From a virus: a stretch of 22,524 nucleotides of DNA. A model generated the notes under the pieces. That model was not told the DNA's origin and made no database searches. It saw only the letters and a list, made by a program, of their open reading frames with translations. The DNA is taken from IMG/VR virus record IMGVR_UViG_3300050015_000148, positions 1-22,524 of that record, one strand, 5' to 3'. The position numbers were made by a program, and so were the translations under genes. Below are positions 4,879 through 16,770 of the stretch, one piece after another (positions within the stretch are counted from its first letter, which is position 1; each line of letters starts with the position of its first letter).

Positions 4879-5370
4879 ATGAAATATACCAAAGAGATAC
4901 TAGAACCACTTACAAGAAAAAGTGAATGTATTGTTGATATAATACGAAGACTTGGACTTCGAGAATCGGGAGGAACTCATTCTCATATTTCTAGAAAACT
5001 AAAAGAATACGAAATTGACACCACACATTTTGTTGGAAAGTCTATTGCAAGAGGAAGAAATCATCCTAATCAAAAGCGAGGATGGAAAGATATTCTCGTG
5101 TTACGATCCATAGGAACACGGCAACACGCAACTTATTTGAGAAGGTCTCTAATTGAAAGTGGTCGAAAATATGTATGTGAAACTTGTGGTCTTAATCCAA
5201 TGTGGAATGGCAAAGAATTACGATTTCAAGTTGACCATAAAAACAAAAATTGGTTAGATGACCGTGCCGAGAATTTACAATTTATTTGCCCAAACTGTCA
5301 TACACAAACAGAAGGATATAATGGATCAAAAGGAAAATCGTCGATTATAGCAGGACATTGGGGGAAATAA
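4879..5370 (+). CDS. HNH endonuclease, paralogue of the gene at 3341
   Basis: A 163-residue protein. The N-terminal third probably binds DNA and ends in IDTTHFVGKSIARG. A basic stretch (NQKRGWKDIL) leads to the HNH domain: Cys100/Cys103 in CETCG, WNGKELRFQVDHKNKN with catalytic Asp119-His120, and the ENLQFICPNCHTQT block with Cys137/Cys140/His141. The family is a common phage HNH nuclease. It is driven by the promoter at 4806. The stop codon ends one base before tRNA-Leu(TAG), so the gene fills the space up to the tRNA exactly. Confidence 0.88.
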   Translation: MKYTKEILEPLTRKSECIVDIIRRLGLRESGGTHSHISRKLKEYEIDTTHFVGKSIARGRNHPNQKRGWKDILVLRSIGTRQHATYLRRSLIESGRKYVCETCGLNPMWNGKELRFQVDHKNKNWLDDRAENLQFICPNCHTQTEGYNGSKGKSSIIAGHWGK

Positions 5371-9011: not shown

Positions 9012-9380
9012 TTGGAGAACTGGAATTTATATATAAATTTTCCAAGAATGTTACAATGTGGGAATCATGAAATACCAATATATGACCCCGAAGGTGAAGA
9101 TGGAAAATACAGTTTTGTTTGTTTAGAAAATGGAATGTTCGTTCCAACAAAAGAATGGGATTTAGTTAAAAGAGTTATGGAAGGTAAAAAATCTGTTAAT
9201 TTACAAATAAAATTGTGGGCAAATGATTTAGGATATTTACTGATGCCTGATGAATTATCTAATTATTGTAAAGAGTATCCTAAATGGGTATTCAAAGCAA
9301 CAATGGAACAGGCTCAGAAACGGATTATAAAAGAAGTAGGATTTATCCCTTCTTTTGTGAGGTTTGGAGACGTTACCTAA
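9012..9380 (+). CDS. Unknown protein, 122 aa, possible TTG start
   Basis: Not recognised. The frame opens at a TTG (9012), 14 bases after the previous stop. The first ATG in frame is at 9048 and would drop 12 residues (MENWNLYINFPR). The body (PIYDPEGEDGKYSFVCLENGM near the N-terminus, a helical C-terminal half) looks globular and soluble. No Shine-Dalgarno helps choose the start. It ends just before a tRNA-like hairpin region. Confidence 0.6.
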   Translation: MENWNLYINFPRMLQCGNHEIPIYDPEGEDGKYSFVCLENGMFVPTKEWDLVKRVMEGKKSVNLQIKLWANDLGYLLMPDELSNYCKEYPKWVFKATMEQAQKRIIKEVGFIPSFVRFGDVT

Positions 9381-9384
9381 ATGT

Positions 9385-9436
9385 CGCTCCTCACCGCCTT
9401 ATGGCGTGTGATAAGGCTTCAATTCCTGTGAGCCGG
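9385..9436 (+). ncRNA. Collapsed tRNA-like hairpin
   Basis: CTCAC (9390-9394) pairs with GTGAG (9428-9432) around GCCTTAT-GGCGTGTG-ATAAGGC, a 7-bp stem with an 8-nt loop. GGCTTCAATTCC in the 3' part resembles a T arm with one extra base, and GTGAGCC resembles an acceptor strand. It is probably a tRNA remnant or a miniature tRNA-like RNA. Confidence 0.35.
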
Positions 9437-9453
9437 ATTTAATCATGGGATAT

Positions 9454-9527
9454 GAGTAAGTAGTATAAAAGTAGTACATTACAGTGACAATGTAAAAACA
9501 ATGGGGCGGTACCATTCTTATTCACCA
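9454..9527 (+). tRNA. tRNA-Val (GAC)
   Basis: The acceptor GAGTAAG pairs with CTTATTC; the D arm is GTAT-AAAAGTA-GTAC. The anticodon arm is TTACA-GTGACAA-TGTAA, anticodon GAC. The T arm AATGG-GGCGGTA-CCATT has the same odd GGCGGTA loop as tRNA-Ala(CGC). CCA is encoded. Confidence 0.85.
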
Positions 9528-9534
9528 TTTTTAG

Positions 9535-9562
9535 TTGACTATATTCTAAAATGTGGTATTAT
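9535..9562 (+). promoter_or_regulatory. Sigma70-type promoter for the 9574 operon
   Basis: TTGACT, 16-nt spacer, TATTAT, 11 bases before the ATG at 9574. Confidence 0.65.
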
Positions 9563-9573
9563 GTTTTATTAAT

Positions 9574-9819
9574 ATGAATGAAAAAAATCTATCAGAAGAA
9601 ACTCGTGCTTTAGTAGAGAAGTGGGAAAAGTCGGGATTGCTTGATAAAAATGCCATTGACAAAAATCAAAAAATGGCTATACTATTGGCAAGTTATTCAA
9701 CCTTAATCATGGAAGATGGTACAAGAATAGATTACATGAATGAGGAAGAGAAACAGAAAAAATTAAAAGAATACAATTATGGGAAATTTACGAAAAATGC
9801 AGCGCAATCTCCAACCTAA
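9574..9819 (+). CDS. Unknown acidic protein, 81 aa
   Basis: Not recognised. It is helical and charged (LSEETRALVEKWEKSGLLD, MNEEEKQKKLKEYN), soluble, with no cysteine. The start at 9574 is chosen because it lies just downstream of the promoter at 9535; an upstream ATG at 9553 would fall inside the -10 region. First gene of an operon that runs to about 10663. Confidence 0.68.
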   Translation: MNEKNLSEETRALVEKWEKSGLLDKNAIDKNQKMAILLASYSTLIMEDGTRIDYMNEEEKQKKLKEYNYGKFTKNAAQSPT

Positions 9820-12294: not shown

Positions 12295-12648
12295 ATGTCG
12301 AATAGAGAATTATTAATATCCAGAATTACAACTAAAAAAATTCCATCTAAATTGAAATTGGAGTTACAACACTATATGGAAGTTGATAGGGATGAACCTG
12401 AAGAAGGCGATGCTCCATATGATATTGCTAATGCTTTCTTTGATGCGATGGATTTTGCAGAAGATAATCAAGATACTGGGTTAGAAAGAATATGTAAACT
12501 TATTTTAATAGATGTTGGATTTTATAAACCTATGTCTCAACAAGATATTAATAATTCATATGTTACGAGCGGTAGAGTATGGGATTTTAAAATGAATGGT
12601 ATTCCATATAGAGGAACTGATTCTATCGAACAATGGTTATCAAAATAA
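12295..12648 (+). CDS. Unknown protein, 117 aa
   Basis: Not recognised. The N-terminal helix is basic (SNRELLISRITTKKIPSKLK), then comes an acidic stretch (EVDRDEPEEGDAPYD) and a mixed C-terminal part. It is soluble with no known motif. It is the last gene before the RNase P RNA, which starts 5 bases after its stop, so RNase P RNA could be made from the same transcript. Confidence 0.66.
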   Translation: MSNRELLISRITTKKIPSKLKLELQHYMEVDRDEPEEGDAPYDIANAFFDAMDFAEDNQDTGLERICKLILIDVGFYKPMSQQDINNSYVTSGRVWDFKMNGIPYRGTDSIEQWLSK

Positions 12649-12652
12649 TTTT

Positions 12653-12912
12653 GCCGTAAGCGACTCTACGCTGGCCGAAAGGCTAGAGGAAGTTCGCTAC
12701 TCCAGAGCAGGTGATTGGGAGAACATCGGAGTCCGAGCCGAGTCTATAAAGTGCTGATGTTCGCTAATACCACAAACTAGGAGCAACTCAAACAGGGAAA
12801 AGGATAGTGCTCTCTAATGTAAAACCCGGGTTGAGGCACCTGTCATGGGCATACTTGTCATGAGTATGAGAAAAATGTAGAGATAGAACAGAATAGCGGC
12901 TATAGCTGCGGC
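12653..12912 (+). ncRNA. rnpB: RNase P RNA
   Basis: Catalytic RNA that removes 5' leaders from pre-tRNAs. Helix P1: GCCGTA (12653) with TGCGGC (12907). P2: CTCTAC (12664) with GTAGAG (12877). P3: CTGGCC-GAAA-GGCTAG. P4: AGTTCGCTA (12691) with TAGCGGCT (12894), including the hallmark bulged U. P5/P7: GCAGGTG with CACCTGT. Conserved blocks are GAGGAAGTTCGCTACTCC (CR-I), GAGCAACTCAAACAGGG (CR-IV, 12781) and ACAGAATAGCGGCTATA (CR-V). About 260 nt is shorter than most bacterial forms (350-400). tRNA-Ala follows after 6 nt. Phage-encoded copies are rare. Confidence 0.88.
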
Positions 12913-12918
12913 AAATAT

Positions 12919-12996
12919 GGGGCACGGAAATGCATAGCGTGTTTGAGACATTCGCAATGTCTAATCAGTCGGGGGCGGTACCCGAGTGCTCCACCA
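12919..12996 (+). tRNA. tRNA-Ala (CGC)
   Basis: The acceptor GGGGCAC pairs with GTGCTCC and has a G-U pair at position 3-70, the identity mark for Ala. The anticodon arm is AGACA-TTCGCAA-TGTCT, anticodon CGC. The T arm TCGGG-GGCGGTA-CCCGA lacks T54-T55. CCA is encoded. Confidence 0.85.
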
Positions 12997-16681: not shown

Positions 16682-16770
16682 TGCAGGGACAAGCCATGGG
16701 ATGCTAAGGTGGCTCATAACCACCGCACTTAATTGTGCTATGTGAGGTTCAATTCCTCTCTCTGCTACCA
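16682..16770 (+). tRNA. tRNA with CAT anticodon and long variable arm
   Basis: GCAGGG pairs with CTCTGC; the D arm is AGC-CATGGGAT-GCT. The anticodon arm is GGTGG-CTCATAA-CCACC, anticodon CAT. A class II variable arm GCAC-TTAATT-GTGC follows. The T arm GAGG-TTCAATT-CCTC is canonical, and CCA is encoded. Bacterial CAT tRNAs (Met, fMet, Ile2) have short variable loops, so its identity is unclear. Confidence 0.78.

Follow-up and report, generated by a model that had tools for sequence, protein, structure and literature searches.

A phage-encoded type-A RNase P RNA with a complete catalytic domain and a nearly lost specificity domain in a viral tRNA cluster

Few ribozymes are near-universal; RNase P RNA is among them and has been regarded as a cellular gene. 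The type A RNA is marked by P6, a long-range pseudoknot connecting J5/7 with loop 17. In bacteria the GGU of L15 pairs with the 3' CCA of tRNA, and CCA binding has been established for the E. coli RNase P RNA. The bacterial catalytic domain alone, together with the protein, is able to cleave pre-tRNA.

Reduced forms of the RNA have been described: the specificity domain is reduced in RNase P-T of Pyrobaculum, CPR RNase P RNAs lack P12, P13, P14 and P18, and some of the CPR RNAs are also devoid of the UGG/GGU loop (PMC8172020). In gut phages, the theta ribozymes, small self-cleaving HDV-like RNAs, act at the 3' trailer of tRNAs, and the paper describing them assigns the 5' ends to RNase P in general (PMC10879173). 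No report of a phage-encoded RNase P RNA was found in the open literature, with subscription papers and preprints outside the search and priority hence uncertain, and the accessible parts of the RNase P RNA finders and reviews do not mention one.

The DNA analyzed here (the window) is a 22,524-base IMG/VR record of a virus that infects bacteria. It encodes proteins of phage families, PhoH, an HNH endonuclease and a DNA methyltransferase among others.

Structure and covariation of the RNA

The plus strand of the window encodes at positions 12650-12915 a type-A RNase P RNA of 266 nt with a complete catalytic domain, as established by structure, alignment, covariation and a covariance model. The initial annotation placed it properly at 12653-12912 but made it slightly too short, since P1, supported by covariation, is formed by UUUGCCG at 12650-12656 and CGGCAAA at 12909-12915. 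P2 pairs CUCUAC (12664-12669) with GUAGAG (12877-12882) and shows double changes in all six pairs; P3 is a hairpin with a GAAA loop (CUGGCC-GAAA-GGCUAG, 12671-12686), visible in both structure and covariation. Conserved region I (GAGGAAGUUCGCUA) and the 5' strand of P4 occupy positions 12686-12699, identified by alignment and covariation, whereas conserved region V (ACAGAA) and the 3' strand of P4 (UAGCGGCU), identified by complementarity and covariation, occupy positions 12888-12901. P4 has eight pairs and a bulged U, and region I (GAGGAAGUUCG) and region V stand in the order and at the spacing of an RNase P RNA. The bulged U is position 12693 or 12694, of which the length-matched alignment equates 12694 with U69 of E. 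coli.

Further downstream, P5 is formed by CUCC (12700-12703) and GGAG (12780-12783), P7 by 12712-12716 and 12775-12779, and the P6 pseudoknot by GAGCA (12705-12709) and UGCUC of loop 17 (12808-12812). According to the alignment, a lone hairpin (AACAUC...GAUGUU, 12722-12761) takes the place of the specificity domain, the conserved CCACAA (12770-12775) precedes the 3' strands of P7 and P5, and the latter strand with J5/15 (12780-12795) reads GGAGCAACUCAAACAG, its counterpart in the RF00010 consensus being GGAGCAAGGCCAAAUAGG. P15 (CUC/GAG, 12787-12835) encloses P16 (12795-12798/12824-12827) and P17 (12802-12804/12813-12815), all three supported by structure and covariation, and L15 (GGGUU, 12828-12832) contains the GGU. 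A P18-like hairpin (CAUAC...GUAUG, 12850-12868), which varies between relatives, is followed by conserved region IV (12869-12877), aligned as AGAAAAAUG in the window, AGAUAAAUG in the relatives and AGAUGAAUG in bacteria. All the elements listed in the initial annotation (P1, P2, P3, P4 with the bulged U, P5/P7, and regions I, IV and V) are present as judged by structure and covariation, and P6, P15, P16, P17 and the L15 GGU add to that list. The proposed length of about 260 nt with reduced peripheral helices also agrees with the 266 nt and the single-hairpin specificity domain. This domain has been shed nearly completely: P8-P14 and the T-loop-binding conserved regions II and III are missing. 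We did not take the loss to exclude membership, because the domain varies among the known RNase P RNAs (PMC8172020).

The structure was evaluated on an alignment of 19 sequences, including the window, with 51 pairs of the type-A structure with the P6 pseudoknot being counted. Paired cells amounted to 91.5%, versus 70.6% in shuffled alignments and 35-43% when the partners were slid, and double changes occurred at 37 of the 51 pairs. The covariation score of 0.57 was reached by none of 500 shuffles (shuffle mean 0.19). Altogether, the covariation support for the type-A structure is overwhelming. P5 and the P6 pseudoknot were paired in every aligned sequence, the latter with double changes at all five pairs, and P4 was paired in 99.3% of cells. 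P2 (91%) and the five main pairs of P3 (99%) showed double changes, and P15, P16 and P17 were paired in 93-95% of cells. P7 (80%) and P1 (74%) were weaker, which is partly an alignment effect. The GGU of L15 was invariant, region IV and the J5/15 adenines were invariant or almost so, and a U-G pair (E. coli 68-358) stood beside the bulged U of P4 in every aligned sequence.

The 3' half of the RNA was modeled from ten relatives, with the window left out; in a search over 206 kb this covariance model scored the window with 99.3 bits (E 6.8e-17). The same model gave full-length but weaker matches on L026, L102 and L109; L026 and L102, both of which carry a recognizable bacterial-type RNase P RNA, were placed correctly, if weakly (20-23 bits). 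Folding of the window RNA as a single sequence was unremarkable (z -1.8) and is not decisive alone.

Viral relatives and the link to bacterial RNase P RNA

The Rfam search of the window returned no RNase P match, even at an E value of 10, and no match to any Rfam family (tmRNA, GOLLD or others) within 12650-12915; the comparison of the window with RF02357 and RF00373 gave no match. The initial annotation proposed a model-score check, in which a low score with a broken catalytic core would count against it. The Rfam score is indeed low, yet the catalytic core is unbroken; we ascribe the low score to divergence combined with the loss of the specificity domain.

Relatives were sought with a pattern derived from the window RNA (GAGGAAGTNCG, a gap, and ACAGAA NNNN GGCT), which leaves free three pairs of P4 and one further base. 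When run on 2.9 million viral contigs, it matched 16, 17 and 39 loci over three gap ranges, 72 altogether. P4 was complementary in all 72 at the positions left unforced by the pattern: each locus had the required C and no fewer than two of the three free pairs, and 66 loci had all three. In 84,980 cellular genomes (gap 185-214) the pattern was never found with a paired P4; it matched three times, each time with P4 broken, and the three genomes concerned have their own rnpB at another site. The window and its relatives make up 61 distinct sequences, falling into 52 clusters at 85% identity, with a mean identity of 51%. These viral relatives, at least 60 phage sequences, are mostly too divergent to be recognized by Rfam. 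BLAST of a phage collection with five family members found no phage with the RNA, and the only BLAST matches of the window region were to the tmRNA-like T-arm, found in Ruegeria phages, and to short, unrelated stretches.

Since the window copy escapes Rfam, and host rnpB does occur at the ends of some viral contigs (L086, L092, L105 and others), one could think of contamination with host rnpB, a misassembly or a dead relic. Such an origin does not agree with GAGGAAGUUCG...GGCU accompanied by a paired P4 in 72 viral loci and in no cellular genome (gap 185-214), with a terminase in 20 of the 48 phage records (one Pfam family searched), or with a structure maintained by compensatory changes. For the family as a whole this explanation is refuted, and we assign it a practically negligible probability.

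The link to the bacterial RNA is provided by whole phage records scored with RF00010, whose cut-off is 100 bits. Three were above it, L026 (189 bits, on a 332 kb contig), L020 (178) and L023 (165), and nine further records scored below it (64, 63, 54, 52, 45, 44, 39, 28 and 27 bits). The 45-bit record is L036, whose RNA shares 69% identity with that of the window; the RNA of L026 is 71.5% identical to an annotated Salmonella RNase P RNA over 136 nt. L006 aligned with the RF00010 consensus over its full length, with the length of region I and P4 conserved. In E. coli numbering, its P4 retained A66-U360, U69 and C70-G357 of the Rfam consensus, and three pairs were altered on both sides: 67-359 from A-U to G-C, 68-358 from G-C to U-G, and 71-356 from C-G to G-C. 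The idea that the phage P4 is short of one adenine was dropped, as the aligned sequences agree in length and differ by paired substitutions. Judged by sequence comparison, the descent of the phage RNA from bacterial type-A RNase P RNA is strongly supported, with three relatives recognized by Rfam.

A pattern for the canonical bacterial rnpB core, positive in nine of 40 genomes, picked up 28 viral contigs, some of them representing host flanks and others phage tRNA arrays. Canonical-core RNase P RNAs lay in phage arrays of 10-26 tRNAs on L089, L090, L096, L099, L101, L102, L103, L109, L111 and L112, and many such RNAs had a tRNA 13-41 nt away on one side or on both. The uptake of rnpB by phages may not have been a single event. 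On L086, L092, L105, L106 and similar contigs, a near-identical rnpB was situated about 150 bases or less from the end of the viral stretch; these copies are probably host flanks of prophages residing near rnpB.

tRNA neighborhood and proposed function

ARAGORN called eight tRNAs in the window, every one on the plus strand, and seven of them terminate with an encoded CCA. The G+C content goes from about 30% to 45% between the end of a gene at 12648 and a tRNA-like gene at 12919. No clear promoter was found. One of the eight tRNAs (16683-16766), called as Met (CAU), has a long variable arm of class II, an unusual feature in a methionine or Ile2 tRNA. HNH-endonuclease-like ORFs are interspersed with the tRNA genes at 227-808, 2425-2841, 3326-3811, 4879-5370 and 17281-17853, the PHROGs comparison having covered 4879-5370 only.

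The adjoining tRNA noticed at the outset is a real cloverleaf at 12919-12996 (plus strand), but neither ARAGORN nor Rfam calls it. This tRNA-Ala-like gene abuts the RNase P RNA and has the anticodon CGC, G3-U70, an encoded CCA and a tmRNA-like T-arm. The arm (UCGGG-GGCGGUA-CCCGA) matches the acceptor arm of alphaproteobacterial tmRNA, and the D-loop reads GCAUAGCGU. A second such gene, with the anticodon UGC, the D-loop GCAUAGAGU and a T-arm identical to that of the window, is located on L079 (4307-4384), a 78 kb phage contig on which no RNase P RNA was detected. The two genes may represent a class of phage tRNA-Ala whose elbow resembles that of tmRNA. An apparent unannotated permuted tmRNA was also seen in Ruegeria phage vB_RpoS-V10 (L076, 1500-1900; MH015255.1, about 9239-9640), whose acceptor piece, ending with CUCCACCA, is followed by a coding piece starting with GGGGCCGAAAUAGGAUCGACAGG. 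Other RNAs were noticed in phages that also have the RNase P RNA: a permuted tmRNA on L005 (6659-6983), an ordinary tmRNA on L009 (10189-10574) and a GOLLD RNA on L015 (8285-8748).

In the representative loci, 568 tRNAs were encoded on the strand of the RNase P RNA and a single one on the opposite strand. Of 51 loci, 14 had a tRNA that started no more than 30 nt past the end of the core (just after P1); random placement predicts 0.5 such loci and gave at most four in 2000 trials. Most relatives were located among ordinary tRNAs of many kinds. Adjacency and co-orientation are consistent with co-transcription with the phage tRNAs. Structure, covariation, gene neighborhood and the homology to Rfam-recognized relatives lend strong support to the proposal of a phage-encoded RNase P RNA beside its tRNAs.

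With a probability of about 0.83, we propose that this is a phage RNase P RNA that has kept the catalytic domain, shed the specificity domain, and matures phage pre-tRNAs with the host RnpA. The rnpA gene (PF00825) was found in none of 48 and none of 10 further phage records, many of them fragments, in a search whose control was positive in 10 of 14 genomes; because the phages lack rnpA, the host RnpA is the likely partner. The RNA would be transcribed along with the phage tRNAs and would assemble with the host RnpA, the phage supplying none. L15 would hold CCA-ended pre-tRNAs, and their 5' leaders would be removed during infection. Where a tRNA abuts the ribozyme, the cut before the tRNA would also free the mature 3' end of the ribozyme itself. 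The benefit may lie in tRNA-processing capacity at a time when phage tRNAs are being produced by the dozen and the host RNA supply is perhaps disturbed. Such activity is plausible, given that the bacterial catalytic domain with the protein can cleave pre-tRNA. With the T-loop-binding specificity domain almost gone, substrate binding must rest on the CCA, the acceptor stem and RnpA. This loss weighs against the proposal, as does the U-G pair beside the bulged U in the P4 of all aligned sequences.

The absence of a phage rnpA, which implies competition for the host protein, and the lost specificity domain would also suit a decoy with an RNase P-like fold that does not cut but captures the host RnpA, or obstructs the host RNase P, and thereby stops host tRNA or RNA processing. 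That role would need neither the bulged U69 and C70 nor regions IV and V, the L15 GGU and the J5/15 adenines, all of which are conserved across highly diverged phages, and it leaves the tight tRNA linkage unexplained; we consider it very unlikely.

The substrates could also be special ones. According to the initial annotation, the RNA is perhaps adapted to pre-tRNAs that are odd or permuted, a suggestion that found no support: the relatives reside in ordinary tRNA arrays, and the elbow of the window tRNA-Ala is the one hint. An active RNase P RNA acting mainly on tRNA-Ala with a tmRNA-like elbow, on permuted tmRNAs or on phage mRNAs would fit the abutting gene with its abnormal T and D loops and the joint presence of the RNase P RNA and a permuted tmRNA on L005. 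The ordinary tRNAs of many kinds that surround most relatives, and L079, where the odd tRNA-Ala occurs with no RNase P RNA detected on the contig, make that specialization highly improbable. Rather unlikely, in our estimate, is a viral lineage devoid of T-loop recognition that is partly cis-acting and has co-evolved here with the tRNA-Ala of tmRNA-like elbow. The RNA would then be joined to the next tRNA in the transcript and would itself make the cut between them, generating both mature ends, and in the phage of the window the D and T loops of tRNA-Ala would have been remodeled like those of alphaproteobacterial tmRNA.

Comparison with known RNAs

A widespread viral RNase P lineage would mean that phages bring their own enzyme for tRNA 5' maturation, and it would explain the processing of large phage tRNA clusters. 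It provides RNase P RNAs, dozens of them and all reduced by nature, for testing which parts the ribozyme needs. The family also exposes a clear gap in RNA annotation, most of its genes being under the Rfam cut-off or scoreless.

The window RNA shares with the class A rnpB RNA (RF00010) P1-P7 including the P6 pseudoknot, P15-P17, the bulged U69, C70-G357, the L15 GGU and regions I, IV and V. It differs in the length of 266 nt, the single-hairpin specificity domain and the changed P4 pairs 67-359, 68-358 and 71-356, as well as in being below Rfam detection, phage-encoded and placed in a tRNA cluster. Like RNase P-T and the CPR forms, it is a shortened RNase P RNA overlooked by standard models; those forms are cellular and some CPR RNAs lack the GGU loop, whereas the window RNA is phage-encoded and has kept the GGU (PMC8172020). 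GOLLD and other large phage non-coding RNAs share the setting of a phage tRNA cluster, and L015 carries both GOLLD and the RNase P RNA, but the GOLLD structure is unrelated to RNase P RNA and the window has no GOLLD match. The nearest analogue is found in the theta ribozymes, which, like the window RNA, adjoin phage tRNA genes and have a proposed role in tRNA processing (PMC10879173).
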